DNA of 64,000 bases from Alphaproteobacteria bacterium LSUCC0684 (GCA_041228335.1 CP166130.1:1264638-1328637); one strand, 5' to 3'. Positions 2,285 through 15,407 are shown, counted from the stretch's first letter. Made by a program: numbers and translations. Notes: a model not told the origin generated them from the sequence alone.

Positions 2285-3247
2285 TTACATGGATTTCGCT
2301 TTGGAAATCATCGCATCGATGGAGCCGGCATTGGCATCGATATACGCCGCAACGACCTTGTTGATATCCTCGCCACGGCTATCAACCGCCGCCATCATGT
2401 TCTGCTGGCTGGTGGCATCAAGCGTGTACATCTTGAGGATGGCATCGGCCATCGGCCAGGTGTCAGCCATGCCGGACCAGGTGACCTTGAAGATGCGCGT
2501 CGGGCTGAAATCGCAATCGCCGGTGGCGTTCGGATTGACGCCCCAGGAGGCATCCGAATAGCACTCATCGGTACCGGCAGGAAGGGCAACCCATTCGGTA
2601 TCGTATTCGGCCAGCGCCCAATGCGGCTGCCAGAAGGTCATGACAAGGGGGGATTTCTTGGCGATGGACGCCTCAAGCTCGGTGATGAGCGCCCCTTCGG
2701 AACCGGCCGGAACGGCGGTGAAATCAATACCGATGGCTTCAAAACGGTCCTTGCCGGGTGAGCCCCAATCCGCCGGGTAATCAAGCAATCGTCCCTTGGG
2801 GAGCGTATCGACGGTGGCAAATTTCGCCGCACAGGCATTGAGCGCTTCCCAACTTGGCAGGCCCGGGCACATTTCCTTCATGTGTACGGGGTAGAGAACA
2901 CCTTCCCGTGCATCAAGACCAAGATCACCGATATCGATCACCTTGCCGGCATCGGCGGCTTCGTTGAACTGACCTGGTGCGTTGGAGGTCCAGATCTCAA
3001 GCGTGGCGTGAAGATCACCTTCTCCAAGAGCAATGAACTGCGGGCCATAACCGGCGGTCACGTATTCAACGCTATATCCGGCACGTTCCAGAATTGCCCC
3101 GGCAACACGGGTTGATAGATGCTGACCTGTCCATTCATTGATCGCAAGCTTGATTGGTTTCTCCGATCCCATATCAAGTGCGGACGCCGCGCCAGTAAAG
3201 GCAACTGAAACCCCGAGGGCCATCGCAGCGATGGTGGTTTTTAACAT
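2285..3247 (-). CDS. Glycine betaine/choline-type substrate-binding protein (OpuAC/ChoX family)
   Basis: Periplasmic solute-binding protein of 320 residues with a signal peptide ending near ALA/SALDMG at residue ~24. The segments KLAINEWTGQHLSTRVAGA and TLEIWTSN are characteristic of the OpuAC/ProX/ChoX fold, and several aromatic residues (NEWTG, FWQPHW, VTWSGMADTW) could form the aromatic cage for a trimethylammonium head group. It is the first gene of the transporter operon (binding protein, ATPase, permease). The ligand (choline, betaine or carnitine) cannot be decided from sequence alone. The neighbouring choline-sulfatase and carnitine-type genes make any of these plausible. Confidence 0.88.
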   Translation of the reverse strand: MLKTTIAAMALGVSVAFTGAASALDMGSEKPIKLAINEWTGQHLSTRVAGAILERAGYSVEYVTAGYGPQFIALGEGDLHATLEIWTSNAPGQFNEAADAGKVIDIGDLGLDAREGVLYPVHMKEMCPGLPSWEALNACAAKFATVDTLPKGRLLDYPADWGSPGKDRFEAIGIDFTAVPAGSEGALITELEASIAKKSPLVMTFWQPHWALAEYDTEWVALPAGTDECYSDASWGVNPNATGDCDFSPTRIFKVTWSGMADTWPMADAILKMYTLDATSQQNMMAAVDSRGEDINKVVAAYIDANAGSIDAMISKAKSM

Positions 3248-3412: not shown

Positions 3413-4417
3413 CTAGCGAGGCGGGATGTCGGCGCGGAACTGAAATGGTGTTCTGCCCTGAAGACGGCCTGCCGAAGGCGTGAGACCAAATCTCTTTTTA
3501 TAGGCGCGGGAGAAATGCTCACGCGAGGAAAACCCGCTTGCGACGGCAACCTCAAGCAGGTTCAAATCGGTCTGGGTGACCAGCCGATGCGCATGCGAGA
3601 GGCGGATTTCCAGATAATTTCGCACCGGGGACTGGCCCGTATACTGAACGAATATCCGATCCAGCTGACGCTGGGAGATACCGGCCTTATGGGCAATCTC
3701 GCTGATTTTCAGCGGCTGATCGAGATGTGACTGCATGATATTCAGTGCCTCGGCAAGAATCCGGGGAACAAAACCGCCGCCGGACATGTGGAAATCGGTC
3801 TGGCGTTCCACCCCTGTCCGGATGCGTTCATGGAAGACATAGGACTGAGCCGCCTGCGCCAGATCAGCACCATGAACTTCGCCGATCATGGTAAGGGCAA
3901 GATCGAGCGTCGCCACCCCGCCTGCGGCACTGAAGCGCGACGCTTCAAGACTAAACAGTCCCGCATCGATATTTATATCCGGAAAGATTTCCCTAAGGGC
4001 GGCGATATGTTCAAAATGGACCACATAGCGCGCCTCACCGAGCAGCCCCGCATAGCCAAGAAGGAATACACCCGTATCAAGCCCGCCCAGTCTGGCCCCG
4101 GCCCGGGCCTGCTGACGCAGCCAGTTGAACAGCTGCGGCGAACGATGCGCTTCGGGAGTCCAGCTCGAATTGACCACCACCATGTCAAACACATCAGCCA
4201 AATTCTGCTGATCGAGTGGCCCGGCCGCCATGACCATCCCGTTGCTTGCCCTGATCGACGATCCGGAAGGGGACAGTATCGTCCATTCGTAAAGACGGAT
4301 GCCTGAAAGATAATTGGCGGCGCGAAACCCATCAAGAAAGGCTGTTGCCGCGAGCAGGTTGAAATCCGGCACAAGGATCATGCCGATCCGGGTTGTTTTC
4401 GCATCCATGATCCGCAT
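3413..4417 (-). CDS. GlxA/CdhR/GbdR-type AraC-family transcriptional regulator
   Basis: 334 residues. The N-terminal ~190 residues form a DJ-1/PfpI-like amidotransferase fold. The usual nucleophile elbow reads GGLDTGVFLLG (Asp114-Thr115, no Cys), so it is a sensor rather than an enzyme. The C-terminal ~100 residues are a double helix-turn-helix AraC domain (ISEIAHKAGISQRQLDRIF and VAVASGFSSREHFSRAYKKRFG). This architecture is that of GbdR and CdhR, regulators of glycine betaine and carnitine catabolism. It is divergent from the choline-sulfatase operon and next to the betaine-type transporter, so it probably controls both. AAGGA eight bases before the ATG supports the start. The specific inducer is unknown. 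Confidence 0.87.
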   Translation of the reverse strand: MRIMDAKTTRIGMILVPDFNLLAATAFLDGFRAANYLSGIRLYEWTILSPSGSSIRASNGMVMAAGPLDQQNLADVFDMVVVNSSWTPEAHRSPQLFNWLRQQARAGARLGGLDTGVFLLGYAGLLGEARYVVHFEHIAALREIFPDINIDAGLFSLEASRFSAAGGVATLDLALTMIGEVHGADLAQAAQSYVFHERIRTGVERQTDFHMSGGGFVPRILAEALNIMQSHLDQPLKISEIAHKAGISQRQLDRIFVQYTGQSPVRNYLEIRLSHAHRLVTQTDLNLLEVAVASGFSSREHFSRAYKKRFGLTPSAGRLQGRTPFQFRADIPPR

Positions 4418-4487
4418 TTGAGCAATCCTTGCGGCCGGCGGAACCCTGTCCCCCCATCCCCTGCCAAGAGGGTGACTTCAGGCCAAG

Positions 4488-4531
4488 CACATGTCTGAAT
4501 AAGTCATTTATATGGCGATTTATTACATGTG
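4488..4531. repeat. Paired CACATGT/ACATGTG inverted half-sites around the regulator promoter
   Basis: CACATGT at 4488-4494 and its reverse complement ACATGTG at 4525-4531 flank the -10/-35 elements of the minus-strand promoter in the regulator/sulfatase divergent region. Each contains the palindrome ACATGT. Spacing between centres is about 36 bp. Function as operator half-sites is inferred. Confidence 0.35.
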
Positions 4532-4535
4532 GCAA
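4507..4535 (-). promoter_or_regulatory. Sigma-70-like promoter for the GlxA-type regulator
   Basis: Minus strand TTGCCA (4535-4530), 17-nt spacer, TATAAA (4512-4507). It lies ~90 nt upstream of the regulator ATG at 4417. The rest of the 205-bp divergent region shows no convincing plus-strand promoter by eye. Confidence 0.5.
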
Positions 4536-4622
4536 GGCAGGTTTTCACCCAATATCAAAGAGTGTATCGGACCGCGCCAATATATGTGCCCGGTTTCACC
4601 CTTTTTTCTTGAGGAAAAAAAG

Positions 4623-6134
4623 ATGAGTTCATCGCCGCCAAACATACTGCTCATCATGGCTGACCAGCTGGCGCCGCAATTTACCGGTGCCTATGGTCAT
4701 CCTATCGTCAAAACCCCGCATATGGAGGCGCTGGCCAGCCGTGGCAGCCGATTTGATGCCGCCTATTGCAACTCACCGCTCTGCGCCCCGTCGCGGTTCA
4801 GTTTCATGTCGGGCCAGCTCATCACGCGGATTGCCGCCTATGACAATGCGGCGGAATTTCCAGCCTCGATCCCGACCTTTGCGCATTATCTGCGCCAGGC
4901 CGGATATCGCACCTGCCTTTCGGGGAAGATGCATTTTGTCGGCCCGGACCAGCTGCACGGATTTGAAGAGCGCATCACCACCGATGTCTACCCTTCCGAC
5001 CACGCCTGGACACCGGACTGGGAGATGCCGGATGAGCGCATCGACAAATGGTATCACAATATGGACTCGGTCAAGGAAGCCGGGGAAGCCGCCACCACGT
5101 TTCAGATCGAATATGATGAGGAAGTGGCGTTTTTCGCTCGCCGCAAGATTTTCGAATATGCCATGGAAAAGGTCGCCCCTTTCTGCATGGTTGCAAGTTT
5201 CATCCACCCCCATGATCCGTATGTCGCCCGCCCGGAATGGTGGGGGCTTTACAAGGATGTGGAGATCGACATGCCCGGCGACATTCCTGAGGCGGATGCC
5301 CATACAAAACGGCTCATGCACGGGATCGAAGCTGACCGGACCAGCGTCAGCGAGGATGAAATCCGCACCGCGCGCCGGGCGTATTACGCCAATACCTCCT
5401 ATTTTGACAGCAAGGTGGGGGAGCTGCTTAAAACCCTCGAAGAAGCGGGCCTTCGCGAGAACACGGTTGTCATCGTCACCGCCGACCATGGTGACATGCT
5501 CGGTGAGCGCGGGCTGTGGTACAAGATGAATTTCTTTGAACATTCCGCCCGGGTGCCGCTGATCATGGCCGGGCCGGGGATACAGCATCAGCGCGTGGAC
5601 AGCGCCTGCTCCCTTGTGGATATTCTGCCGACCCTCAATGATATTGCCGGTATCGCACCTGATCTCGGCATGCCGGTGGATGGACGCTCGCTCTGGCCGG
5701 TTGCCACGGGGGGAAGCGACTCCAAGGATGAAGCGATCGGGGAATATTGCGCGGAATGTGCCTCGCATCCGATCTACATGATCCGCCGCGGTCACCTGAA
5801 ATATATCCATTGCGATATCGACCCGCCGCAACTCTATGATCTTGCAAAAGATCCCGATGAACGGCACAACCTGGCCACAGACCCGGGCTACGCCGCCGAA
5901 GCCGCCACCTTTGCCGAGGAGGTTGCCCGGCGATGGAACAGTGATATCATTCGTCAAAACGTCATTGCCACCCAGCGCCAGCGCCGGGCGGTGCATCAGG
6001 CGATGCAGGAAGGCAGGCTGACCTCCTGGGATTACCAGCCGCATCGTGATGCCGCAAACGAATATGTCCGCAACCATATGGACTGGACGGTGGCCGCCGA
6101 GAAGACCAGATTCCCGCCGTTTTCAAGGAAATGA
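4623..6134 (+). CDS. betC: Choline-sulfatase
   Basis: Type I sulfatase that hydrolyses choline-O-sulfate to choline and sulfate, normally cytoplasmic; no signal peptide is seen. Residues 54-58 are CAPSR, the CxPSR motif whose Cys is converted to formylglycine. Metal ligands include Asp14 (MADQ) and the later HGDMLGERGLWYK motif. The C-terminal WDYQPHRDAANEYVRNHMDW stretch is typical of BetC rather than of other sulfatases. The length, 503 residues, fits the family. The frame continues upstream to 4512, but the ATG at 4623 follows GAGGAAAAAAAG and gives the canonical N-terminus. It is the first gene of the operon and its stop overlaps the next start (ATGA). No betA, betB, betI or sulfatase-maturase gene is present in the window. 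Confidence 0.93.
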   Translation: MSSSPPNILLIMADQLAPQFTGAYGHPIVKTPHMEALASRGSRFDAAYCNSPLCAPSRFSFMSGQLITRIAAYDNAAEFPASIPTFAHYLRQAGYRTCLSGKMHFVGPDQLHGFEERITTDVYPSDHAWTPDWEMPDERIDKWYHNMDSVKEAGEAATTFQIEYDEEVAFFARRKIFEYAMEKVAPFCMVASFIHPHDPYVARPEWWGLYKDVEIDMPGDIPEADAHTKRLMHGIEADRTSVSEDEIRTARRAYYANTSYFDSKVGELLKTLEEAGLRENTVVIVTADHGDMLGERGLWYKMNFFEHSARVPLIMAGPGIQHQRVDSACSLVDILPTLNDIAGIAPDLGMPVDGRSLWPVATGGSDSKDEAIGEYCAECASHPIYMIRRGHLKYIHCDIDPPQLYDLAKDPDERHNLATDPGYAAEAATFAEEVARRWNSDIIRQNVIATQRQRRAVHQAMQEGRLTSWDYQPHRDAANEYVRNHMDWTVAAEKTRFPPFSRK

Positions 6135-7279
6135 CCATGCCCGGAGATAAAATCGCCATGACGGCGGAAAGATTGTTCAACGGCTGGGATGACCGCCCTG
6201 CCCGCTCACTTTCCATGCACAAGGATGCCTATATCGATCCGCGCTGGCTCGAAGTGGAGAAAAAAGAGATATTCCATCGCTCCTGGCAATTCCTCTGCCA
6301 TGAGGAAACCTTGCGAGAGTGCGGCCAGTATGTCGCCATGAACATTCAGGGCCAGAGCATTGTCGCCATCCGCGGCAAGGATGGCGAGTTGCGCGCCTTT
6401 TATAATGTCTGCAAGCATCGCGGGCATGAACTCCTCAACGGCAGCGGCCAGACAAAACGGGTGATCTGCCCCTATCATGCCTGGTCCTATGATCTGGACG
6501 GACGGTTTCTTGAAGCCCGGCAATCCCGCTTCATCGAGGATTTCAACCCTGAGGATTTCTGTCTTGATCCGGTCCGGATTGAAACCTTCTGCCATCTTGT
6601 CTTTGTCAATCTTGACCCGCAGGCACCGCCGCTCGCCGAGCAATCGGGCAATCTGGCAAAGGAGATCATGCAGCATGCACCTGATCTGGGCCAGCTGACA
6701 TTCGCCCACCGGCTGACCTACAGGATCAAGGCGAACTGGAAATCGGTGGTCGATAATTTTCTTGAATGCTACCATTGCCCGGTGGCGCATCAGGATTTCT
6801 GTACGCTTATCGAAATGGATACCTACAAGGTCGAAACCCACGGGATATATTCAAGCCACATGGCCAAGGCCGGACGCAGCGACAACAAGGCCTACCGTAC
6901 CGATGGCGCGAGGGTTACCGATCACGCGGTATGGTATCTCTGGCCCAATACGACGCTGATGCGCTACCCGGGGCGGGGCAATTTCATGGTCTGGCGGTTT
7001 TACCCGGACGGGCCGGAAGAAACCTATGAAGAATTCGACTTCTTCTTTGAAAGCGCTGATCTGGTGGATGAAGAGAAGGACGCGATACGATTTATTGATG
7101 ATGTTCTCCAGCCCGAGGATATCGGCCTTGTGGAAAGCGTGCAGCGCGGCATGCAGACCCCGGCTTACCAGCAGGGCCGATATATGGTTGACCCGGATGG
7201 CTCCGGATTGAGCGAGCATGCCGTCCATCATTTCCACGGCCTGATCCGCAAAGCCTATCTGGGGGAGAAACTCGCATGA
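6131..7279 (+). CDS. Rieske-type non-haem iron oxygenase, alpha subunit (carnitine/glycine-betaine monooxygenase-like)
   Basis: 382 residues. The Rieske 2Fe-2S ligands are Cys94-x-His96 and Cys113-x2-His116 (CKHRG and CPYHAW). The catalytic iron site is DNFLECYHCPVAH, with His215 and His220. The position normally held by the inter-subunit bridging Asp is Glu212. Glu here is known from CntA-type carnitine oxygenases and relatives acting on quaternary amines. The reaction would be O2-dependent hydroxylation that releases a methyl group or cleaves the C-N bond. The substrate is open: carnitine (CntA), glycine betaine (GbcA) or a related betaine. It overlaps betC by ATGA and the next SDR by ATGA. 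No ferredoxin reductase partner (CntB/GbcB) is encoded nearby. Confidence 0.88.
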   Translation: MTMPGDKIAMTAERLFNGWDDRPARSLSMHKDAYIDPRWLEVEKKEIFHRSWQFLCHEETLRECGQYVAMNIQGQSIVAIRGKDGELRAFYNVCKHRGHELLNGSGQTKRVICPYHAWSYDLDGRFLEARQSRFIEDFNPEDFCLDPVRIETFCHLVFVNLDPQAPPLAEQSGNLAKEIMQHAPDLGQLTFAHRLTYRIKANWKSVVDNFLECYHCPVAHQDFCTLIEMDTYKVETHGIYSSHMAKAGRSDNKAYRTDGARVTDHAVWYLWPNTTLMRYPGRGNFMVWRFYPDGPEETYEEFDFFFESADLVDEEKDAIRFIDDVLQPEDIGLVESVQRGMQTPAYQQGRYMVDPDGSGLSEHAVHHFHGLIRKAYLGEKLA

Positions 7280-8061
7280 CGGCCGAGAGGGAAACAGCAG
7301 CTTCCGCCCCGCTTGCAGGCCGGATCGCCCTGGTGACCGGCGGAACAGGCGGGATCGGCACCGCGATCTGCGCCCGGCTTGCCCGCGAAGGCGCAACGGT
7401 GATTGCAACAGATCGCCAACGCCCGAAAGGTGACCTGCCGGATGGGGTGCGCTTCTGCCATACCGATATCACCGATGATGCCAGCATTCGCGCGACAATC
7501 TCAACGCTGGAAGCTGAATTCGGCAAGATCCATATCCTTGTCAATGCCGCCGGGATCGAGATTGAAAAAACCATCGAAGATACCAGTCTTGAAGAATGGA
7601 ATCATATCTTTGCCGTCAATGTCACCGGAACGTTTCTTGTCAGCAAACATGCCCTGAACCTGATGCGGAACGCCGGCGGCGGCTCGATCATCAATTTCGG
7701 CTCCTATGACGGATTTATCGCCGATCCGGGCCTTGCCGCCTATTGCGCGACCAAGGGCGCTGTCCATGCCCTCACCCGTGCCATGGCCTGCGATTACGGC
7801 CCCGAAGGTATCCGCGTCAACGCCATCTGCCCGGGATATATCGACACGCCGATGCTGCAGAGTTTCTTTGGTGACAGCGGTGATATCGAAAGCCTGCAGC
7901 AGGCCGTCCGTGATGTGCACCCGATGCGGCGCTATGGCACCCCCGATGATGTGGCGGGGCTGGTAAACTGGCTTGCTGGTGACGAGGCACGCTATGCTTC
8001 GGGGCAGCTCTGGGTTCTTGACGGCGGCCTGACCGCCCAGGTTCAGCAAATGAGATTTTAG
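7276..8061 (+). CDS. SDR-family NAD(P)-dependent oxidoreductase
   Basis: 261 residues with the classical short-chain dehydrogenase layout: cofactor motif TGGTGGIG (21-28), NAAG at ~90, Ser143, and the catalytic pair Tyr156/Lys160 (YCATK). An Asp in the TDRQ stretch after the second strand favours NAD over NADP. It overlaps the upstream Rieske gene by four bases, so it is co-translated in the sulfatase operon. The substrate is not evident. D-carnitine dehydrogenases and several 3-hydroxyacid dehydrogenases are SDRs, so oxidation of a hydroxylated quaternary amine fits the setting but is inference. Confidence 0.88.
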   Translation: MTAERETAASAPLAGRIALVTGGTGGIGTAICARLAREGATVIATDRQRPKGDLPDGVRFCHTDITDDASIRATISTLEAEFGKIHILVNAAGIEIEKTIEDTSLEEWNHIFAVNVTGTFLVSKHALNLMRNAGGGSIINFGSYDGFIADPGLAAYCATKGAVHALTRAMACDYGPEGIRVNAICPGYIDTPMLQSFFGDSGDIESLQQAVRDVHPMRRYGTPDDVAGLVNWLAGDEARYASGQLWVLDGGLTAQVQQMRF

Positions 8062-8071
8062 GAGGAGTACC

Positions 8072-9007
8072 ATGGCAAAAGCAAAAAGCGTTATCATCAC
8101 CTGTGCGGTTACCGGCGGCATTCATACCCCGACCATGTCACCGCATCTGCCCGTGACCCCGCAACAGATCGCCGCTGATGCGATTGCCGCCTCCGATGCC
8201 GGGGCGTCGATCATCCATCTGCATGCACGCGACCCTGAAACAGGTAAACCCACCGCTGATCCGGATGTCTTCATGCAGTTTCTGCCGGTGATCAAGCAAA
8301 GTTCCGAGGCGGTGATCAATATATCCACCGGCGGCGGGCTCGGCATGACCCTTGACCAGCGACTGGCAGCAGCACGGCGGGCAAGCCCGGAGATGGCCTC
8401 GCTCAATATGGGATCGATGAATTTCGGTATCTTCCCGATGCTGGAAAAATACAGCGAGTGGAATCATGCCTGGGAGCCTGAATTTCTCGGCATGACAAAG
8501 GATTTCATTTTCAAGAATACTTTCAATGATATTGAAACTGTACTTAAAGATTTAGGAGAAGGTCACGGCACCAGGTTCGAAATGGAATGCTATGACCTCG
8601 GCCATCTTTATACGGTGGCGCATTTCGTCGACAAGGGGCTGATCAAGCCGCCGTTCTTCCTGCAGCTGATCTATGGCATCCTTGGCGGTGCGGGCGCGGA
8701 GATCGATAATCTTGTCCATATGAACACGGTCGCTGACCGCCTTTTCGGTGATGATTACGAGTGGTCGGTGCTCGCTGCGGGCAAAAACCAGATGGGGTTT
8801 GCCACCACCGCCGGACTGCTTGGCGGGAATCTGCGGGTCGGTCTCGAAGACAGCCTTTATATCGGCAAGGGTGAACTTGCCCGGAGCAACGCCGATCAGG
8901 TCAGCAAGATCCGCCGCATTGTCGAAGATCTGTCGCTGACGGTCGCCACGCCTGAAGAAGCCAGGCAGCGACTGGCGCTCAAAGGTGGCGATGCGGTTGG
9001 TTTCTAG
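8072..9007 (+). CDS. BKACE-family beta-keto acid cleavage enzyme (DUF849), probable dehydrocarnitine cleavage enzyme
   Basis: 311-residue TIM-barrel enzyme of the beta-keto acid cleavage (Kce/BKACE) family, which condenses a beta-keto acid with acetyl-CoA and releases acetoacetate plus a new CoA ester. Visible hallmarks are the zinc-binding HLHARDPETGKPT (His-x-His), NISTGGG, and the C-terminal GGNLRVGLEDSLYIGKGE carrying the catalytic Arg and metal-ligand Glu. A strong AGGAGG precedes the ATG. With a carnitine-dehydrogenase-like gene two genes downstream, the best guess is CdhC-type cleavage of 3-dehydrocarnitine to betainyl-CoA and acetoacetate. BKACE specificity varies widely, so the substrate is inferred from context only. 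Confidence 0.88.
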   Translation: MAKAKSVIITCAVTGGIHTPTMSPHLPVTPQQIAADAIAASDAGASIIHLHARDPETGKPTADPDVFMQFLPVIKQSSEAVINISTGGGLGMTLDQRLAAARRASPEMASLNMGSMNFGIFPMLEKYSEWNHAWEPEFLGMTKDFIFKNTFNDIETVLKDLGEGHGTRFEMECYDLGHLYTVAHFVDKGLIKPPFFLQLIYGILGGAGAEIDNLVHMNTVADRLFGDDYEWSVLAAGKNQMGFATTAGLLGGNLRVGLEDSLYIGKGELARSNADQVSKIRRIVEDLSLTVATPEEARQRLALKGGDAVGF

Positions 9008-9025
9008 AAGAAACAAGGGGAAACC

Positions 9026-9091
9026 ATGTCTGATGATACCGAACTGCTCTTCCATGGAGATCATGGCACGTCATGTCATGATCGGCCATGA
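9026..9091 (+). CDS. Possible 21-residue leader or remnant ORF
   Basis: ATG at 9026 follows AAGGGG by six bases and opens 21 codons (beginning MSDDTELLFHGDHG, ending at TGA 9089-9091) between the BKACE gene and the second SDR. It is very short and matches nothing I recognise. It sits near where the betainyl-CoA thioesterase (cdhB) is found in Pseudomonas carnitine loci, so it might be the 5' remnant of a lost gene, a translational coupler for the next SDR, or chance. Confidence 0.2.
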   Translation: MSDDTELLFHGDHGTSCHDRP

Positions 9092-9118
9092 CCAGACTTG
9101 AGCCGGAGCACGCCGCCC

Positions 9119-9877
9119 ATGCCTGAAGGGAAAACAGCACTTGTGACGGGCGGCAGCCGCGGCATCGGGGCCGGGATTGTCCAGCGCCTCACCGCCGACG
9201 GGACCAGGGTGATTACCTGCGGGCGTGGCCCGCGGCCGGGCAATCTTGCGGGGGAAGTGGACTGGATTTCGGCCGATGTCTCCGACAGCGGCGATGTATC
9301 GGTGCTTTTCACCCATATCGAGACGACGTATGGACGCCTTGACCTGCTCGTCAACAATGCCGGTGTCCAGGTGGAAAAGACGGTGGCGGATTCCACCGAT
9401 CAAGACTGGAACGAGGTGATGGGGATAAACGCCAAGGGCGTGTTCCTCACCATCCGTGCCGCAATCCCCCTGATGATCCGGGGTGGCGGCGGAAGTATCG
9501 TGAATATCGGCTCCATCTCCGGCAATCACGCCGATCCTTCCATGGCGCTCTACAATGCTTCGAAGGCTTTCGTCCATGGACTGACACGATCGGTTGCGGT
9601 GGATCATGGCAAGGACGGGATCAGGTGCAACGCGGTCTGCCCCGGCTGGATCATGACCGGCATGGCGGATGCGGCCTTTGCCCTCGCATCTGATCCGGAA
9701 AAAGCACGGGCGGACGCACTCAACCGCCATGCCGCCGGGAGATTTGGCAAACCCGAAGATATCGCCGCCGCCGTTGCCTGGCTGCTTTCCGATGAAGCGC
9801 AATTTGTCACCGGCCAGACCCTGACGGTTGATGGCGGGCTCGTCGCCGCCACCCCTATCCGACCCGAGTTAAGTTAA
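9119..9877 (+). CDS. SDR-family NAD(P)-dependent oxidoreductase (second copy in operon)
   Basis: Classical SDR with GGSRGIG cofactor loop (11-17), NNAG (79-82), Ser132 and Tyr145/Lys149 (YNASK), about 252 residues from the ATG at 9119. An in-frame TTG at 9098 would add seven residues; the ATG, with GGAG 11 bases upstream, gives the more usual N-terminus. CGRGP after the second strand lacks the acidic residue seen in the first SDR, so the two paralogues may differ in cofactor preference. Two SDRs flanking a BKACE gene in one operon could act on the two enantiomers of a hydroxylated substrate or on successive steps; that is speculation. Confidence 0.86.
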   Translation: MPEGKTALVTGGSRGIGAGIVQRLTADGTRVITCGRGPRPGNLAGEVDWISADVSDSGDVSVLFTHIETTYGRLDLLVNNAGVQVEKTVADSTDQDWNEVMGINAKGVFLTIRAAIPLMIRGGGGSIVNIGSISGNHADPSMALYNASKAFVHGLTRSVAVDHGKDGIRCNAVCPGWIMTGMADAAFALASDPEKARADALNRHAAGRFGKPEDIAAAVAWLLSDEAQFVTGQTLTVDGGLVAATPIRPELS

Positions 9878-9897
9878 TCCTTTTTACGAGATATATA

Positions 9898-10833
9898 ATG
9901 AAAGATATTGATAGAGTTGGAATTATCGGATCAGGAGTTATAGGGGCAAGCTGGAGTGCCCTGTTTCTTGCCTCGGGCCGTGAGGTGGTCAATTACGATC
10001 CCAATCCAGATAACGAAAACCTGACCAAACGCTATATCGAAAAGGCCTGGGGGCATCTTGAAGAGCTGGGAAGCATCACCGATGGCGCCTCGCCTTCACG
10101 CATCCGCTTTGTCGGTGATCCCGCCGCGGCGGTCGAGGGATGCGGCTTCATTCAGGAAAGCGTGCCCGAGCGTCTTGAGATCAAGCATGAAACCTACAAG
10201 CGAATAGAACCTGCCCTTGGGGAAGATGCTGTTTTGTCGACGAGTTCGTCCGGTCTGCTTCTCGGTGATATGCAGGCCGGGCTTAAAGATGCGTCCCGGC
10301 TCATTGTCGGCCATCCTTTCAATCCGCCGCATCTGATCCCGCTGGTGGAATTGCTCGGCAACGCAAATACCGCCGGAGGCGTGCTTGATCGGGCGGCAGA
10401 ATTTTACTTGTCCTGCGGCAAGGTCACCATTCGCGTGAACAAGGAAGTTCCCGCCCATGTTGCCAATCGTCTGCAGGCCGCGCTCTGGCGTGAGGCGATC
10501 AGCCTGGTGGCCGAGGGCGTGGCCAGCGTCGAAGATGTCGACAAGGCGGTGACGGCGGGGCCGGGGCTCAGATGGTCGGTCATGGGGCCGCATATGCTGT
10601 TCAGCCTTGGATCCGGTGGCGGCGGCATGAAAACCTTCTGCGAGAGATACGGGCCGAGTTTCCGCAGCTGGTGGGATTCCATGGGCACGCCTGACCTGAC
10701 ACCTGAAGTGATTGACCTCTTGGAGCGGGGTATCCGTGAAGAAGAAGACGGCCGTGATTTTGATACCCTTTCGGCTGAACGTGATGCTAAACTCATCGCC
10801 AGCATGAAAGCCTTGAAGGGAATACAGTCATGA
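9898..10833 (+). CDS. L-carnitine dehydrogenase-like / 3-hydroxyacyl-CoA dehydrogenase-family protein
   Basis: 311 residues, NAD-dependent oxidation of a 3-hydroxy group. Rossmann motif GSGVIGAS (11-18), the 3-hydroxyacyl-CoA dehydrogenase signature with catalytic residues in STSSSG and GHPFNPPHLIPLVE (His139, Glu151) and the VANRLQAALWRE helix. Single-domain length and sequence style match CdhA, which oxidises L-carnitine to 3-dehydrocarnitine. In some rhizobia the enzyme is fused to a hot-dog thioesterase; here there is no such extension. It lies 20 nt after the second SDR, with a weak ribosome site, and its stop overlaps the next start. The role is strongly supported by the BKACE neighbour, but the substrate is not proven. 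Confidence 0.82.
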   Translation: MKDIDRVGIIGSGVIGASWSALFLASGREVVNYDPNPDNENLTKRYIEKAWGHLEELGSITDGASPSRIRFVGDPAAAVEGCGFIQESVPERLEIKHETYKRIEPALGEDAVLSTSSSGLLLGDMQAGLKDASRLIVGHPFNPPHLIPLVELLGNANTAGGVLDRAAEFYLSCGKVTIRVNKEVPAHVANRLQAALWREAISLVAEGVASVEDVDKAVTAGPGLRWSVMGPHMLFSLGSGGGGMKTFCERYGPSFRSWWDSMGTPDLTPEVIDLLERGIREEEDGRDFDTLSAERDAKLIASMKALKGIQS

Positions 10834-11024
10834 CCGGAGCGCCGAAGCCTATCCGCGCGAGCATGGAAATCATCTGGCACCTGACCTGCGGGGAGTGCAG
10901 CTTTTACTGGACATATCCGACCATGAATCTCAAGGAAAATATCGATGCCAAGCCGATGCACTGCCCGCTTTGCGGTGCCCGCAGCCTGATCAAGACAGAA
11001 ACCTCACCTGAAAGTCCGGGCTGA
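10830..11024 (+). CDS. Small four-cysteine zinc-ribbon/rubredoxin-like protein
   Basis: 64 residues with two CxxC knuckles: CGEC near residue 20 and CPLCGAR near residue 46, about 25 residues apart. That pattern can bind one zinc or iron. It resembles a zinc ribbon, and the second knuckle (CPLCGA) is also reminiscent of rubredoxin. It starts within the stop of the carnitine-dehydrogenase-like gene (ATGA) and its own stop overlaps the next start (TGATG), so it is a genuine, co-translated operon member. I do not recognise a named family. Possible roles are an electron carrier for the Rieske oxygenase, a metal chaperone or a regulator. Confidence 0.72.
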   Translation: MTGAPKPIRASMEIIWHLTCGECSFYWTYPTMNLKENIDAKPMHCPLCGARSLIKTETSPESPG

Positions 11025-11956
11025 TGTCATCACCATCGAGGTCCCTGCCCGCCGTCTCTTCCGGCGCACAGGCGTCGCTGGGCAGCCTGTTTTTCATCTG
11101 TGCCGTGGTGGTCTTCGCCACCCAGGACGGGATTTCCAAATATCTTGCGCTGAGCTACAGCGTCTTTTTCATCGTCATGGTCCGGTACTGGGTGTTCGGG
11201 ATCTTTGTCCTGGCCATCAGCATGCGGAAGCCCGGCGGTATCGCCGCTGTTGCACGTTCAGCGGTACTGCCGGTACAGATTTTCCGCGGTGTCCTTCTGG
11301 TGATCCAGATCTGCTGTATTGTCTGGAGTTTCGGGCATATCGGCCTGATCAACACCCATAGCGTCTTTGCCTCCTACCCGCTGATGGTAACCGCCCTGTC
11401 TGTTCCCCTGCTCGGGGAGAAGGTCGGCCTGCAGCGATGGCTTGCCATCTGCACCGGGTTCACCGGCGTGCTGATCATCCTGCAGCCCGGCAGCAGCATT
11501 TTCACCCCGGCCTCGCTTTTCCCCTTGGGTTTTGCCGTCATGTTCGCGCTCTATAACATTGCCACCCGCTATGTGGCGAGGTTCGACAAGCCTGAGACAA
11601 GCTTTTTCTGGACCGGTATCAGCGGTGCGCTCACCATCACCCTGATCGGCCCGTTTTTCTGGGACCCGATGCAGTCCTCAATTGACTGGATGTGGATGGT
11701 GATCCTCAGCATCACCGGTGCGTTGGGGCATTACCTGATGATCCGGGCGCTGGACCTGACCGAGGCCTCCCGGGTGCAGCCTTTTGTCTTTCTGCAGATG
11801 GTTTTTGCCAGCGGGATCGGCATTGTCATTTTTCAGGAAGAACTCCGCCCCACCACCATGCTCGGTGCTGCCATCGTCATCGCCTCGGGGATGTTCACCT
11901 TCTGGCGGGAGCGGCTGCATGCACGAAGGGAAACCCTTGCCCGGCGGCAGGGATGA
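11024..11956 (+). CDS. EamA/DMT-superfamily transporter
   Basis: 310-residue inner-membrane protein with about ten hydrophobic segments arranged as two five-helix EamA repeats (first from ~18, second from ~165), ending in a basic tail (RERLHARRETLARRQG). It is the last gene of the sulfatase operon, translationally coupled to the zinc-ribbon gene. DMT proteins usually export small metabolites or amino acids; removal of a by-product or exchange of an osmolyte is possible, but the substrate cannot be inferred. Confidence 0.87.
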   Translation: MSSPSRSLPAVSSGAQASLGSLFFICAVVVFATQDGISKYLALSYSVFFIVMVRYWVFGIFVLAISMRKPGGIAAVARSAVLPVQIFRGVLLVIQICCIVWSFGHIGLINTHSVFASYPLMVTALSVPLLGEKVGLQRWLAICTGFTGVLIILQPGSSIFTPASLFPLGFAVMFALYNIATRYVARFDKPETSFFWTGISGALTITLIGPFFWDPMQSSIDWMWMVILSITGALGHYLMIRALDLTEASRVQPFVFLQMVFASGIGIVIFQEELRPTTMLGAAIVIASGMFTFWRERLHARRETLARRQG

Positions 11957-12489: not shown

Positions 12490-12903
12490 ATGGTTCTTTT
12501 TGCTTCACTCATCACGGGTATTCTCTTTGGTGTCGGCCTCGCCCTCGGCGGTATGCTGGACCCATCCAAGGTGATCGGGTTTCTTGATATTTTCGGCCTC
12601 TGGGATCCTTCGCTTGCCTTTGTCATGGGTGGCGGTGTTATTGTCAGCGGGATTGGCTATCGTCTTGCGATGCGTCGCAGCAAGCCTCTCTTCACCGATG
12701 CCTTCCAGCTTCCCACCAGCAACATGATTGATCGCCCCCTGGTGATTGGCGCGGTCCTCTTCGGCATCGGCTGGGGGGTGTCCGGGCTTTGCCCCGGCCC
12801 GGCGCTGGCATCTGCCCTGCTCAACCCCGGTGACGGTATCGGTTTTCTGTTTTTCATGATTGCCGGTCTTGCTCTGGGACGTGTTATCAAAAGAAGGATG
12901 TAA
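12490..12903 (+). CDS. YeeE/YedE-family (sulphur transport domain) membrane protein, C-terminal half
   Basis: 137 residues starting MVLFASLITGILFG, with several membrane helices and the conserved GVSGLCPGPAL cysteine loop that pairs with the first half. The frame continues upstream into the preceding gene, but GAGG eight bases before the ATG at 12490 supports this start. The stop (12901-12903) is 4 nt before the aminotransferase ATG. The two halves should assemble into one transporter. Confidence 0.88.
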   Translation: MVLFASLITGILFGVGLALGGMLDPSKVIGFLDIFGLWDPSLAFVMGGGVIVSGIGYRLAMRRSKPLFTDAFQLPTSNMIDRPLVIGAVLFGIGWGVSGLCPGPALASALLNPGDGIGFLFFMIAGLALGRVIKRRM

Positions 12904-12907
12904 ACCC

Positions 12908-14293
12908 ATGACTGATACCAATCGCGTCCGGCCAAAGGATATCCAGAAATGGGATAACGATCATGTTTTTCATCCCTGGGAATCCATGGGGGTGGAAAAC
13001 GCTGACCTGGGTATTATCCATGAAGCCAAGGGTATCTACATGACCGATCCCGATGGGCGCCGGATGATCGACGGACCTGGCGGCATGTGGTGCGTCAATA
13101 TCGGGCACGGCCGGGAAGAGATGGCCCTGGCTATTTCAAATCAGGCCAGCAAGCTTGGCTATTCAAGTCCATGGACATCGGCAACAAAACCCTCGAGCAT
13201 CCTTGCCAGACGCATTGCCGAGAAAACGCCGGGGGACCTCAATACCGTCTTCTTTACAACAGGCGGATCATCGGCGGTGGATACAGCGCTCAGATTCGTG
13301 CATTTCTACAACAATATCAAAGGCAGGCCTGAAAAGAAGATCACGATTGCCCGGGAAAAGGGATATCACGGCTCCACCTATCTTTCGGCCAGCGTTTCAG
13401 GCAAGGAACGTGACCGCAGGTTTCTTGACACGAACAAGGAGATGGTCCGCTTTCTGCCCAATGTGAACCCTTATATCCGCCCTCAAGGGATGAGTCTCGA
13501 GGCCTGGCGGGATGAAAAACTGGCTGACCTGGAGAACATGATCCTCGAAACCGGGCCGGACAAAGTTGCGGCCTTCATCGCCGAGCCCATCCTTGCCTCG
13601 GGCGGGGTGATCGTCCCGCCGGAAGGATATCACAAGGGATGTCTTGAAATCTGCCGGAAATATGATGTGCTCTATATCTCGGATGAGGTAGTCACGGGTT
13701 TCGGCCGACTTGGTCACTGGTTTGCCTCGGAAGAGGTGTTCGGCATCACGCCGGATATCATCACCTGCGCCAAGGGGCTGACTTCGGGCTATGTTCCCAT
13801 GGGGGCGGCGATCTTCTCCGACAGCCTTCTTGCGGAAATTCAGGATGAGGAAAACGACGGTATCCTGTTTTCAAACGGCTATACCTATTCCGGCCATCCG
13901 GTTTCTGCCGCCGCCGCGCTCAAGAACATGGATATCATCGAAGATGAAAACCTGCTCCGGCATGTGCGCGAGATCTCGCCACATTTTCAGGACCGGCTCA
14001 AGCAGCTCGGGGAAAAGCACCGGATCGTCGGCGATGCGCGCGGGATGGGGTTGCTTGGCTGTCTTGAAGGTGCCGCCGCGCCCGGCAGCCCTGAAAGCGT
14101 GAAACTCCCCATTGATCTTGAATTCGGGCACCGCATGGATGTGGCTGCGGAAAAACGCGGCCTCCTGGTACGGCCCATCATCAATATGTGCGTCTTCTCA
14201 CCGCCGCTGGTCATCACCAGAGAAGAAATCGATACAATGTTTGATATTCTTGATGATGCGATAGAAGAAGTTCAGGCGGAAATGCTGCCTTAA
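12908..14293 (+). CDS. Class III (omega) aminotransferase, PLP-dependent
   Basis: 461 residues, fold-type I. The PLP lysine is Lys289 in CAKGLTSGYVPMGA, with the cofactor Asp at 259 (YISDEVVTGFGR) and the phosphate-binding GGSSAVDTAL near 120. Related enzymes move the terminal amine of polyamines, beta-alanine or taurine to pyruvate. It follows the YeeE/YedE pair by 4 nt and precedes a polyamine-type binding protein gene that has its own promoter. The true amine donor is undecided between polyamine-like and sulfonate amines. An upstream in-frame start at 12860 lies inside the YeeE/YedE gene and is rejected. Confidence 0.88.
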   Translation: MTDTNRVRPKDIQKWDNDHVFHPWESMGVENADLGIIHEAKGIYMTDPDGRRMIDGPGGMWCVNIGHGREEMALAISNQASKLGYSSPWTSATKPSSILARRIAEKTPGDLNTVFFTTGGSSAVDTALRFVHFYNNIKGRPEKKITIAREKGYHGSTYLSASVSGKERDRRFLDTNKEMVRFLPNVNPYIRPQGMSLEAWRDEKLADLENMILETGPDKVAAFIAEPILASGGVIVPPEGYHKGCLEICRKYDVLYISDEVVTGFGRLGHWFASEEVFGITPDIITCAKGLTSGYVPMGAAIFSDSLLAEIQDEENDGILFSNGYTYSGHPVSAAAALKNMDIIEDENLLRHVREISPHFQDRLKQLGEKHRIVGDARGMGLLGCLEGAAAPGSPESVKLPIDLEFGHRMDVAAEKRGLLVRPIINMCVFSPPLVITREEIDTMFDILDDAIEEVQAEMLP

Positions 14294-14301
14294 ATTTTCA
14301 G

Positions 14302-14329
14302 TTGTTGCCGCCCCTATCCATGCTAGGAT
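14302..14329 (+). promoter_or_regulatory. Extended -10 promoter for the PotD/PotF-like binding protein
   Basis: TTGTTG (14302-14307), 16-nt spacer ending TGC, TAGGAT (14324-14329). The TG one base before the -10 box makes an extended -10 element. It lies 28 nt upstream of the ATG at 14358. Confidence 0.4.
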
Positions 14330-14357
14330 AAACCCATCTAATCCGGGAGGAACTGAA

Positions 14358-15407
14358 ATGAATGTATTTAGAAAAACTCTGATGTCGGCGGTGGCGGTGG
14401 TGTCTTTGTCAGGCGCTGCTCTTGCCGCCGATAGTGAACTCGTCGTTTTTGACTGGGCTGGCTATGAAGATCCGAACTTCTTCCAGGCTTATGTCGACAA
14501 GCATGGTGATGCGCCGACCTATTCCTTCTTTTCCGATGAAGAAGAAGCTTTTCAGAAAATTCGGGCAGGTTTCAAGGCTGATCTTGGCCATCCCTGCTCG
14601 CAGTCGGTGATCAAATGGCGCGAAGCCGGCATTATCGAGCCGATCGATACATCACGGCTCAAGAACTGGGACAAGGTGATCCCGAATTTCAAAAACATGG
14701 AAGGCTTCAATGTGGGCGGCAAGCAATGGGTGATGCCGGTGGACTGGGGCGCAACAGCGCTCACCTACCGCACGGACCTGGTTTCCGAATCCGAAGCTGC
14801 AACGCTGCAATCTTTTGCCGATCCCAAATTCGCCGGGCGAATTTCCGTTGTTGACAACGTTGATGATGCCTATGCGCTCGGCTTTCTTGCCACCGGCGTA
14901 ACGGACTGGAACAAGGCCACCATGGCTGACCTTGACAAGGCCTCCGCTTTCCTGCGCGAAGTTCACAAGAATGTCCGCACCTACTGGCAGGACGGCGCTG
15001 AAGTCCGCAGCCTGATGGCCAGTGGCGAGATTCTCCTGTCCTGGTCCTGGAACGAAGTGGCGGTTATCCTTGAATCCGAAGGGGTGCCGGTCGGCATGAA
15101 TCGCGATACCAAGGAAGGATCCTCCACCTGGGTCTGCGGTTATGTCATGCTCAAAGACGGCAATGGGTCAAAGGACAAGGCCTATGACTTCCTCAATGCC
15201 TGGCTTGAAGAAAGTTCCGCCAACTACATCGTGACCGAATGGGGTTATGGCCATTCCAACGGTGAAGTGATGGACGCCATTGGTGAGGAAAACGGCTTTG
15301 GCACGCTCGAGAGCTATTCCAAGAACACGCTCTGGCAGGCACCGATCTCCCCTGAAATGCGGGAGAAGATGATCAAGGAATTCGAATTGATCAAGGCCGG
15401 GTTCTGA
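14358..15407 (+). CDS. Polyamine-type (PotD/PotF family) periplasmic substrate-binding protein
   Basis: 349 residues with a clear signal peptide (cleavage after ALA at ~23). LVVFDWAGYEDPNFFQAY at the mature N-terminus, MPVDWGATALTYR and LSWSWNEVAV are hallmarks of spermidine/putrescine-binding family 1 proteins. A strong GGGAGG precedes the ATG. It is convergent with the matching ATPase and permeases (15490-18279), separated from them by a bidirectional terminator. Because those genes are coupled to a Rieske oxygenase, the ligand may be an N-methylated amine or betaine rather than putrescine. Confidence 0.85.
   Translation: MNVFRKTLMSAVAVVSLSGAALAADSELVVFDWAGYEDPNFFQAYVDKHGDAPTYSFFSDEEEAFQKIRAGFKADLGHPCSQSVIKWREAGIIEPIDTSRLKNWDKVIPNFKNMEGFNVGGKQWVMPVDWGATALTYRTDLVSESEAATLQSFADPKFAGRISVVDNVDDAYALGFLATGVTDWNKATMADLDKASAFLREVHKNVRTYWQDGAEVRSLMASGEILLSWSWNEVAVILESEGVPVGMNRDTKEGSSTWVCGYVMLKDGNGSKDKAYDFLNAWLEESSANYIVTEWGYGHSNGEVMDAIGEENGFGTLESYSKNTLWQAPISPEMREKMIKEFELIKAGF

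Follow-up and report, generated by a model that had tools for sequence, protein, structure and literature searches.

A Rieske oxygenase operon of an alphaproteobacterium that probably degrades a carnitine-like nitrogen compound

What does an operon degrade that joins a choline sulfatase and a Rieske oxygenase to enzymes of the carnitine type, and is it a pathway with gaps? In the sea, quaternary amines make up large pools of nitrogen and carbon, and their microbial fate (glycine betaine versus trimethylamine) bears on methylamine cycling. A Rieske operon that is conserved, broad in taxonomic range and in part carried by plasmids would represent an additional route, overlooked by current annotation. 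The operon analysed here occupies positions 4623-11956, on the plus strand, of a window of 64,000 nucleotides (the whole stretch of DNA analysed) of Alphaproteobacteria bacterium LSUCC0684 (CP166130.1:1264638-1328637). Its probable function is the degradation of a carnitine-like nitrogen compound, and the first step would fall to an iron-dependent oxygenase unlike the known carnitine enzyme.

The eight tightly spaced genes described in the first-pass annotation are all present, with open and intact reading frames: betC, encoding a choline-O-sulfatase (4623-6134); the alpha subunit of a Rieske oxygenase (6131-7279; Pfam Rieske and Ring_hydroxyl_A); the short-chain dehydrogenase SDR1 (7276-8061; adh_short_C2, 213 bits); a BKACE (8072-9007); the short-chain dehydrogenase SDR2 (9098-9877; adh_short_C2, 213 bits), whose start codon is TTG and whose 5' end is uncertain; a 3-hydroxy-acid dehydrogenase of the L-carnitine dehydrogenase/lambda-crystallin family (CDH, 9898-10833); a 64-aa CxxC...CxxC zinc-ribbon protein without a Pfam match (10830-11024); and an EamA-family transporter (11024-11956; PF00892, 89 bits). 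The intergenic gaps are, in order, -4, -4, 10, 90, 20, -4 and -1 bp, four of the seven junctions being overlapping, and the 90-bp gap (9008-9097) is the place of an aldehyde dehydrogenase gene in several relatives. None of betA, betB, betI and betT is among the operon genes, nor is a cdhB-type thioesterase, in line with the earlier remark that betA, betB and cdhB are absent from the operon itself (CdhA and CdhB are the carnitine dehydrogenase and the betainyl-CoA thioesterase).

The core of this operon (Rieske-SDR1, often SDR2, BKACE and CDH, and in some cases betC and an aldehyde dehydrogenase) is found again on plasmids and in Alpha- and Gammaproteobacteria, SAR324 and Acidimicrobiia. Among the 38 long loci (those reaching 3 kb or more upstream of the Rieske gene and 5 kb or more downstream of it, with genes counted from 3.5 kb before to 6 kb after), SDR1 is present in 37, SDR2 in 26, CDH in 17 and BKACE in 16, indicating that the combination is not due to chance; betC is present in 10. 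In the 80 related loci, SDR1 lies near the Rieske gene in 70, SDR2 in 51, CDH in 28 and betC in 13. Of the 65 loci in which SDR1 follows the Rieske gene within 3 kb, it is at most 200 bp away in 56, with a median gap of -3. The comparison of gene order proposed in the first-pass annotation shows a recurrent combination, with no prior assignment, that unites the choline sulfatase, the Rieske oxygenase and the CDH/BKACE pair. A CDH at 60% identity or more (query, the Ruegeria protein) and a Rieske protein at 55-58% (query, the window protein) occur in an identical set of ten plasmid records, and betC adjoins the core in five of the eight annotated plasmid loci.

Several relatives carry additional genes. 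The plasmid of Pseudomonas MPC6 encodes, behind the core, a PDR/VanB reductase, a thioesterase and a choline-type binding protein (440 versus 379 bits). This thioesterase has a single strong match, to positions 345-492 of the fused carnitine dehydrogenase model, which form its C-terminal thioesterase part (112 bits). A Reductase_C-type reductase is added in Mesorhizobium (L143), and an annotated FAD-dependent oxidoreductase in Shinella (L146). The place of the 90-bp gap is taken by a 475-residue ORF of aldehyde-dehydrogenase type in L052 and by an annotated aminobutyraldehyde dehydrogenase in L142, L143, L145 and L146 (in L142, 662 bits against a cut-off of 615 for the subfamily model and 603 against 909 for the equivalog), and a dimethylglycine dehydrogenase (609 bits) adjoins the core in L071. 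The genes are also found apart: of 385 Alphaproteobacteria sampled, 23 genomes besides that of the window have a CDH match at E 1e-90, and of the 18 such CDH loci fetched one (L235) has the Rieske cluster. In one genome (G185, locus L230) a CDH at 61% and a BKACE at 73% are neighbours, with neither a window-type Rieske nor the SDRs, and in Rhizobium CB3171 the best Rieske match is about 10 kb from BKACE and CDH, on the opposite strand. Of the 17 genomes without a BKACE adjacent to the locus (all MAGs by title, completeness not stated), seven have a 58-67% BKACE elsewhere, four only a 33-34% one and six none at E 1e-30, so the Rieske-SDR1 pair may work without a window-type BKACE.

The rest of the 2.70 Mb genome largely answers the question of the gaps. 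The first-pass annotation had described canonical steps as missing, and had named betAB and cdhB genes elsewhere in the genome, under the same regulation, as a finding that would speak against this; its whole-genome search now yields betA (835 bits, curated cut-off 732, C1:2064767-2066353) and a cdhB-type thioesterase, as part of a fused carnitine dehydrogenase-thioesterase (712 bits, cut-off 592, C1:340833-342293) that adjoins a different BKACE, while for betB 15 aldehyde dehydrogenases match the BADH model, the best with 574.7 bits against 668.6. Because betA and the fused enzyme are present, the notion of missing steps is largely refuted, and the operon is therefore an extra module beside the ordinary carnitine operon of the same genome, not a pathway with holes.

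The best solved relative of the Rieske protein is the carnitine monooxygenase CntA (6y8j; 271 bits over 359 residues, 35-37% identity in the alignment). In the accessible text of PMC7948474, an aromatic residue at CntA position 203 marks group Va of the group V Rieske proteins, to which choline monooxygenases belong, and Asn marks group Vb; CntA with Y203F alone is reported there to be active. A Cys-x-x-Cys pair beside the iron site is described for some group V enzymes in the part available of PMC10952381. The window protein has F210 at CntA Y203, together with C213/C216, E212, H215, H220 and D330, and the aromatic residue (F), the Cys pair, the bridging Glu and the Fe ligands are conserved in 92 of 92 family rows. 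The aromatic residue is insufficient as a mark, because Phe is also found at this position in two other Rieske proteins of the window genome and two of Roseovarius pelagicus, all without the Cys pair; the window protein carries both group Va marks, and its predicted substrate is a quaternary ammonium compound. The seven CntA pocket residues (Y203, Y225, F258, N270, Y295, Y315, F319) are all kept in four of four CntA/YeaW-type proteins; the window family has F, Y, H, M/L, F/Y, I/V/L and L, with F258, N270, Y315 and F319 altered in all 92 rows, the residue assigned to position 270 varying with the alignment. In the tree the CntA group is separate (support 100/100), and the window family lies on one side of a branch with weak support (52/68) in a set with long branches. 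By sequence, the protein is thus nearest to CntA yet outside the CntA clade, with an altered pocket, and an assignment as CntA/YeaW carnitine monooxygenase was discarded on these grounds. An assignment as the glycine betaine monooxygenase GbcA was likewise discarded (NF058607, 158/670 bits, residues 24-231 only).

Divergently to the operon, on the minus strand, are encoded a ProV-like ABC transporter ATPase (1192-2283; ABC_tran, 117 bits), an OpuAC-type substrate-binding protein of predicted glycine betaine/choline class (2285-3247; PF04069, 144 bits) and a GbdR-like AraC/GlxA-type regulator (3413-4417), far under the cut-off of the GbdR model (256 versus 480 bits). Copies of the ATPase (60-68% identical) and of the binding protein (73-80%) occur in L053 and L055, the ATPase near the Rieske gene, and 20 of the 80 related loci have a regulator that is at least 33% identical. 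The divergent intergenic region (4418-4622) contains the inverted repeat CACATGT (4488-4494)/ACATGTG (4525-4531), a possible operator. At the other end, tblastn finds no match to the zinc ribbon at E 1e-3 among 95 other loci, in which some contigs occur twice, and the EamA genes of other loci are only 24-28% identical; both genes are local additions outside the conserved set, from which the zinc ribbon, counted in the combination by the first-pass annotation, is thus removed.

A quaternary-ammonium substrate is favoured because the Rieske protein is nearest to CntA and has the group Va marks, BetC keeps its glutamate, and the transporter and regulator are of betaine class; it is also supported by the joint occurrence of CDH and the Rieske protein on plasmids, the thioesterase and binding protein of MPC6, the relatives' reductases, the aminobutyraldehyde-type and dimethylglycine dehydrogenases, the trimethylamine/histamine-dehydrogenase-family gene that adjoins the core in L067, and the overlapping gene set, with another oxygenase, of the Arctic SAR11 island described below. 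At the level of the class (a quaternary-ammonium betaine taken by the oxygenase to a 3-keto acid and on to BKACE) we regard this reading as fairly probable, slightly less so than at the outset because CDH occurs without the Rieske gene more often than first held. Gamma-butyrobetaine is the leading, unproven candidate substrate, and the whole course with it or a close homologue is proposed tentatively, as somewhat short of an even chance. The OpuAC-type transporter would take up the substrate; the Rieske oxygenase, bearing the signature residues and served by a reductase encoded elsewhere, would hydroxylate the chain, most likely that of gamma-butyrobetaine or a close homologue at C-3; SDR1 and CDH, perhaps acting on opposite hydroxy-acid enantiomers, would oxidise the putative product to the 3-keto acid; BKACE, by the known chemistry of its family, would convert a keto acid with the presumed R group and acetyl-CoA to acetoacetate and a betainyl-CoA-like acyl-CoA; and a thioesterase from outside the operon would free glycine betaine. 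CDH contains 3HCDH domains (Pfam 3HCDH_N), and its best model, NF005471 L-carnitine dehydrogenase (262/414 bits), stays below cut-off, as does NF005716 carnitine 3-dehydrogenase (242/592, compared with 712 for the fused enzyme elsewhere in the genome).

BetC would free choline from choline-O-sulfate, and BetA, coded elsewhere, would lead it towards glycine betaine, the same end product. BetC scores 721 bits against the TIGR03417 equivalog cut-off of 433.45, and 211 of the first 412 aligned columns are identical to the S. meliloti choline sulfatase, for which the accessible part of PMC5870055 gives the fGly cysteine C54, Q15, H201, K309 and the quaternary-ammonium glutamate E386; their equivalents are kept as C54, Q15, H197, K301 and E378. 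The betC identity given earlier is thereby borne out, and from its residues the enzyme looks like a genuine choline-O-sulfatase that recognises choline sulfate.

The case for gamma-butyrobetaine is weakened by the BKACE, which belongs to the 3,5-dioxohexanoate-type subfamily (NF053538, 514 bits, cut-off 430) and is 60% identical to 3e02 and 56% to BKACE15, because it is only 33-34% identical to carnitine-type BKACEs and because the substrates given for BKACE15 in the part of the source available are uncharged keto acids only (malonate semialdehyde, beta-ketopentanoate, beta-ketohexanoate, 5-hydroxy-beta-ketohexanoate, 3,5-dioxohexanoate). The BKACEs of the genome's two carnitine-type clusters (L044, 34%; L043, 33%) are 59% identical to each other, and placing the window protein in the sequence group of the dehydrocarnitine-type BKACE beside the fused carnitine dehydrogenase was rejected at 34%. 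Also against this candidate, acyl-CoA dehydrogenase and CoA-ligase genes accompany BKACE+CDH in two further clusters of the genome, through which gamma-butyrobetaine could already be processed as a CoA ester. In favour of the candidate, no gamma-butyrobetaine dioxygenase was found at the TIGR02409 cut-off in 61 genomes searched, two proteins being within 10 bits; the best match of the window genome (405.6 versus 414.75 bits) is a different enzyme, TmpA (545 versus 400 bits). A second dioxygenase-like gene (225 bits, well under the cut-off) counts against it. Against the course as a whole stand the loci in which the genes lie apart or BKACE is missing, the Phe of Rieske proteins that have no Cys pair, and a search of the window genome at E 1e-10 in which no GbcB-type reductase was found. 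CntA cleaves the C-N bond and does not hydroxylate C-3, which also counts against the proposed C-3 hydroxylase.

The main rival takes up this point: the Rieske protein would cut the C-N bond first, releasing trimethylamine, the nitrogen-free aldehyde or hydroxy acid would be oxidised by SDR, CDH or ALDH, and BKACE would cleave any beta-keto acid arising, such as malonate semialdehyde (from beta-alanine betaine) or 4-hydroxy-3-oxobutanoate. It holds this rank because the BKACE subfamily is, in the source as available, assayed only on uncharged keto acids, among them the malonate semialdehyde taken by BKACE15; CntA is moreover the closest solved relative of the Rieske protein, and in L067 a trimethylamine/histamine-dehydrogenase-family gene and a formaldehyde-activating enzyme gene adjoin the operon. 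The altered pocket positions argue against it, as do the carnitine-type thioesterase of MPC6 and the absence of a full-length TMAO demethylase from the window genome and from six of the eight Rieske-bearing genomes among the 61 searched; the three annotated CntA-type loci pair with succinate-semialdehyde dehydrogenase, with no BKACE or CDH in the short stretches fetched. On balance we consider this route unlikely, with an appreciable minority chance.

The operon could instead serve D- and L-carnitine, as first proposed, SDR and CDH oxidising both enantiomers to 3-dehydrocarnitine for BKACE and the Rieske protein serving another compound. The family of CDH and the frequency of both SDRs near the Rieske gene are compatible with this idea, which is nevertheless improbable: SDR1 goes together with the Rieske gene more than it does with CDH (of the long loci, 37 have SDR1 and only 17 CDH), the fused enzyme already accounts for L-carnitine, and the BKACE is of a different subfamily from that of the carnitine operon. 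Lowest of all we place an operon for choline-O-sulfate, in which the Rieske protein would be a choline monooxygenase, SDR/ALDH would oxidise the aldehyde, and BKACE and CDH would serve something else; the genuine look of BetC, its position in the plasmid loci, the group Va membership of choline monooxygenases and the MPC6 binding protein favour it, whereas betC is near in few loci, betA lies elsewhere in the genome, and BKACE and CDH are left unexplained. There is a small chance that the same logic applies to another onium compound of marine algae, with a different acyl-CoA, for example the sulfonium analogue gonyol. Delta-valerobetaine, in the available part of the source a homologue of the carnitine precursor, would be another such compound. 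The presence of three BKACE/CDH sets in parallel within one genome points to as many related substrates, while the lack of any direct sign of chain length or sulfur counts against the idea.

Compared with carnitine catabolism via carnitine dehydrogenase, BKACE and betainyl-CoA thioesterase (Pseudomonas; fused enzyme in Sinorhizobium), the operon shares a same-family 3-hydroxy-acid dehydrogenase beside BKACE, a betaine-type transporter and a GlxA-type regulator, but places a Rieske oxygenase and two SDRs ahead of them, lacks a thioesterase and has a BKACE from another subfamily; the ordinary system is separately present in the genome. With CntA/CntB (YeaW/YeaX) it shares a Rieske alpha subunit with the aromatic residue and the Cys pair, but no CntB gene adjoins and an SDR replaces the succinate-semialdehyde dehydrogenase. 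With the bet operon for choline-O-sulfate (betICBA) it has betC in common. BKACE15 of Paracoccus denitrificans (PDB 8RIO/8RIP/9HNF), one of the solved relatives, is reported, in the part available, from a context of aromatic degradation. The Arctic SAR11 glycine-betaine island, as described in the accessible text of PMC12421898, resembles the window in its betaine ABC transporter, CDH, BKACE, alcohol/aldehyde/choline dehydrogenases (CHDH, ALDH) and DMT-type transporter; it has gamma-butyrobetaine dioxygenases where the window has the Rieske protein, additional thioesterase, class II aldolase, glyoxalase-type and phosphodiesterase genes, and no betC named in that text.

With the leading substrate in mind, the Rieske protein might be the founding member of a new CntA-like (group Va) type, a stereospecific C-3 hydroxylase of gamma-butyrobetaine or homologues replacing the unrelated 2-oxoglutarate-dependent BBOX and partnered by an SDR dedicated to it and a BKACE of unusual kind. 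In oxic water, at least four bacterial groups would thereby degrade such betaines to acetoacetate and glycine betaine and form no trimethylamine; we consider this extended proposal doubtful. The operon offers four clean enzymes for assay, and isolates carrying it include Ruegeria sp. THAF33, Pseudomonas sp. MPC6, Shinella and Mesorhizobium. In the plasmid records the Rieske protein is labelled only "ring-hydroxylating oxygenase".

The eight open reading frames of the operon (window positions 4623-11956, forward strand; betC, Rieske enzyme, SDR1, BKACE, SDR2, CDH, a 64-residue zinc ribbon and EamA) were intact, ordered and tightly packed, as the first-pass annotation had described. The genome of LSUCC0684 consists of one contig (C1) of 2,704,644 bases, listed as 100% complete, of which the window is C1:1264638-1328637. 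The earlier description of a pathway with missing canonical steps is mostly explained away by genes located elsewhere in this genome: betA was found above its cut-off (835 of 732 bits), and a 495-residue protein (C1:340833-342293) matched the fused carnitine 3-dehydrogenase (CdhA-thioesterase) model over positions 3-494 of 495 (712 of 592 bits), adjoining its own BKACE, an acyl-CoA dehydrogenase and a CoA-ligase-like gene. The betB search gave 15 aldehyde dehydrogenases, none above the BADH cut-off. Since betA and the fused carnitine enzyme are encoded elsewhere, the operon is an additional module rather than a deficient carnitine or choline pathway. A third BKACE/CDH pair, at about C1:1.70 Mb, is accompanied by similar dehydrogenase and ligase genes. 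Three parallel BKACE/CDH sets are thus present in this 2.7 Mb genome, the two outside the operon (C1:1.69-1.71 Mb and C1:332-348 kb) each holding an acyl-CoA dehydrogenase gene together with one for an ADP-forming CoA-ligase-like protein.

Upstream of the operon, and divergent from it, are genes encoding a GlxA/AraC-type regulator, an OpuAC-type binding protein and an ABC ATPase. The same transporter was found near the same Rieske gene in two relatives (loci L053 and L055), indicating that the functional unit exceeds the eight genes. An inverted repeat, CACATGT (4488-4494) / ACATGTG (4525-4531), lies between the divergent regulator and betC, and is a putative operator. The zinc ribbon and EamA were rejected as pathway components, as their conservation was absent among related loci. 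On the downstream side, window positions 12860-15407 encode an aminotransferase (634 of 618 bits) together with a PotD-like polyamine-type binding protein (71 of 582 bits), neither of which belongs to the conserved cluster.

One scan of 84,980 species genomes, using an alignment of eight Rieske proteins as query, gave 388 encoded relatives, and the best 80 of the 388 loci were kept. According to the record titles, these 80 belong to Alpha- and Gammaproteobacteria, SAR324 and Acidimicrobiia, and nearly all are MAGs. Counting cases at contig ends, the best 80 of 388 loci include SDR1 (70/80), SDR2 (51/80), BKACE (30/80), CDH (28/80), the regulator (20/80), betC (13/80) and an aldehyde dehydrogenase (6/80); the corresponding numbers for the 38 loci with sufficient flank were 37, 26, 16, 17, 10, 10 and 5. 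Gene models of the fetched loci follow a simple longest-ORF rule, and unnamed wrong-strand ORFs occur among them. The gene order differs (Rieske-SDR1-BKACE-SDR2-CDH; Rieske-CDH-SDR1-BKACE-SDR2; SDR1-SDR2-betC-Rieske-BKACE-ALDH-CDH); this variation favours a common function over a single inherited block. Some loci, including ones of Acidimicrobiia, are reduced to Rieske-SDR1 and others to Rieske-SDR1-SDR2; the fixed core is Rieske-SDR1. In the gammaproteobacterial locus L099, a fatty-acid-hydroxylase-family gene (8753-9781, reverse strand; PF04116, 67 bits, computed for this locus alone) immediately precedes the Rieske gene or its regulator in divergent orientation, and similar-looking ORFs occupy this place in three other gammaproteobacterial loci (L070, L074, L100).

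The plasmid records with a Rieske match at E 1e-60 were 27, ten of them at 55-58% identity (eight covered by annotation, a ninth unannotated, the tenth being Rhizobium CB3171). A plasmid search with the Ruegeria CDH retrieved ten records at 60% identity or more, the next being at 52%, and these were exactly the same ten. BKACE at 72% or more was present in eight of them; the other two (Alisedimentitalea and M382) show the order Rieske-betC-SDR1-SDR2-CDH. The best Rieske place of CB3171 lies about 10 kb from BKACE/CDH, on opposite strands, indicating co-occurrence there and not one operon.

A control sample of 385 evenly drawn Alphaproteobacteria included 24 genomes with a CDH match (E 1e-90), LSUCC0684 among them. 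Surroundings were examined for 18 of the 23 others, and the Rieske cluster was present in one locus of 18 (L235: regulator-Rieske-SDR1-BKACE-ALDH-SDR2-CDH). Locus L230 has a 73% BKACE adjoining a 61% CDH, lacks SDRs and the operon-type Rieske gene, and has a Rieske gene of another branch at the stretch edge; L238 has a 65% BKACE beside CDH; the remaining loci have CDH without the core. The proposal that CDH always accompanies this Rieske enzyme is consequently weakened, being true for the ten plasmid records but for 1/18 CDH loci in the alphaproteobacterial sample. The CDH loci without the cluster indicate that CDH, and the CDH/BKACE pair, serve elsewhere too.

The best solved match of the operon Rieske enzyme was the carnitine monooxygenase CntA (271 bits). 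Trimethylamine release of the CntA kind is the main alternative to hydroxylation. Group Va enzymes, which act on carnitine, choline or benzalkonium, are recognised by an aromatic residue at position 203, whereas the demethylases GbcA and Stc2 carry Asn there (PMC7948474, PMC10952381). The operon family has Phe at 203 in 92/92 rows (near-copies included, the same contig twice for L054/L064 and L055/L065, some rows partial), together with the Cys pair, the bridging Glu and the Fe ligands. This Phe is not exclusive, being also present in two other Rieske proteins of LSUCC0684 and two of Roseovarius pelagicus, all without the Cys pair. The seven pocket residues named in one of these papers were all kept in 4/4 CntA/YeaW-type proteins; with His at 258, an aliphatic residue at 315 and Leu at 319, the operon family has a pocket unlike that of CntA. 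Plain CntA and plain GbcA identities were rejected from the pocket and the GbcA model score. The CntA group was separate (100/100) in a tree of 29 rows, and the operon family falls on one side of a branch with weak support (52/68) in a set containing long branches, with one long-branched LSUCC0684 protein placed among the family rows. The candidate carboxylate-binding Arg278, at CntA N270, was weakened: the pairwise alignment gives R278 and the multiple alignment M277. Another Rieske branch (C1:2188651-2191166, L047:8640-11197; also L195 and L196) has Tyr at 203, the Cys pair and a distinct pocket pattern (Y, Y, Y, Q, R, D, T), and is followed by an aldehyde dehydrogenase gene; Sulfitobacter and Mesorhizobium plasmids carry relatives.

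A reductase gene is missing from the operon, and no GbcB-like protein was found in the LSUCC0684 genome at E 1e-10. One Reductase_C-type protein is encoded at C1:776916, and in Mesorhizobium a reductase of this type adjoins the operon. The nine Rieske matches in the LSUCC0684 genome (E 1e-20) make reductase sharing plausible.

The genes surrounding related loci are consistent with glycine betaine as the product. On the MPC6 plasmid, the genes after the core encode a reductase, a thioesterase that strongly matched only the thioesterase portion of the carnitine enzyme, and also a choline-type binding protein; locus L071 has a dimethylglycine dehydrogenase after SDR2 (609 bits to a solved enzyme of that kind); and L067 is adjoined by a trimethylamine/histamine dehydrogenase family gene and a formaldehyde-activating enzyme. 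The trimethylamine-dehydrogenase-like gene of L067 would also suit trimethylamine release. The enzyme set of an Arctic SAR11 island overlaps with that of the operon, and includes gamma-butyrobetaine dioxygenases, no Rieske enzyme being named for it (PMC12421898). Gamma-butyrobetaine dioxygenase was above cut-off in 0/61 genomes of the order, two being within 10 bits, and its best match in LSUCC0684 was TmpA of a phosphonate cluster. From the end-product hints, the SAR11 island and the lack of an above-cut-off dioxygenase in the 61 genomes, we infer that the Rieske enzyme would hydroxylate gamma-butyrobetaine or a close homologue, with SDR/CDH oxidation and BKACE cleavage following. The ordinary carnitine enzyme was present in 8/8 genomes with the Rieske gene and 20/53 without it, a co-occurrence confounded by kinship.

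Confidence in gamma-butyrobetaine hydroxylation is limited by the BKACE subfamily, which speaks most strongly against a plain carnitine interpretation. The operon BKACE belongs to NF053538 (56% identity to BKACE15), and the carnitine-type BKACEs of the genome form a separate group, to which the known dehydrocarnitine BKACE would belong, judging from the fused carnitine dehydrogenase encoded next to it. CDH falls in the carnitine dehydrogenase family, reaching no cut-off. Related CDH/BKACE pairs without this Rieske gene occur in Azospirillum and Paracoccus (the latter with a BKACE of the carnitine-like group), so the pair alone is no proof of a quaternary amine. Positions separating the cluster BKACEs, which are not known to lie in the active site, include E230, F138 and R300; an acidic pocket residue as a carnitine-type specificity mark was weakened, not being borne out by the 3c6c alignment. 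Among 17 genomes without an adjacent BKACE, seven have a 58-67% BKACE elsewhere, four only a 33-34% one, and six none genome-wide at E 1e-30. In 9/20 genomes of that search, a BKACE neighboured a CDH, both of the ordinary carnitine type (33-43% identity); the Rieske-SDR1 module could therefore feed the ordinary carnitine pathway.

The gene set recurs. In the open-access literature searched (most subscription papers being outside the scope), no title or abstract start among the papers matched described the Rieske and BKACE combination, and no paper joined three of Rieske, carnitine, SDR family oxidoreductase and choline-sulfatase. An undescribed route, as originally suggested, may be considered a good, testable possibility.

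BetC scored above its curated cut-off and keeps the residues for catalysis and choline recognition described in the structure paper (PMC5870055), and by sequence is a real choline-O-sulfatase. betC is an optional cluster member (13 of the best 80 of 388 loci; 5/8 annotated plasmid loci). A Roseovarius pelagicus plasmid locus (L184) is another betaine-like setting for this BKACE type: a 69% relative of the operon BKACE, an alpha/beta hydrolase, an aldehyde dehydrogenase, Rieske genes without the Cys pair and a choline-dehydrogenase-family gene (718 of 605 bits), with neither SDR nor CDH annotated in the stretch. The LSUCC0684 phosphonate cluster (C1:269.5-277.8 kb, L228:8524-16761) encodes TmpA (545 of 400 bits), a TmpB-like HD oxygenase (246 of 300 bits), and PhnA, PhnW and phosphonoacetaldehyde dehydrogenase, all three above cut-off, suggesting conversion of trimethylaminoethylphosphonate to glycine betaine.
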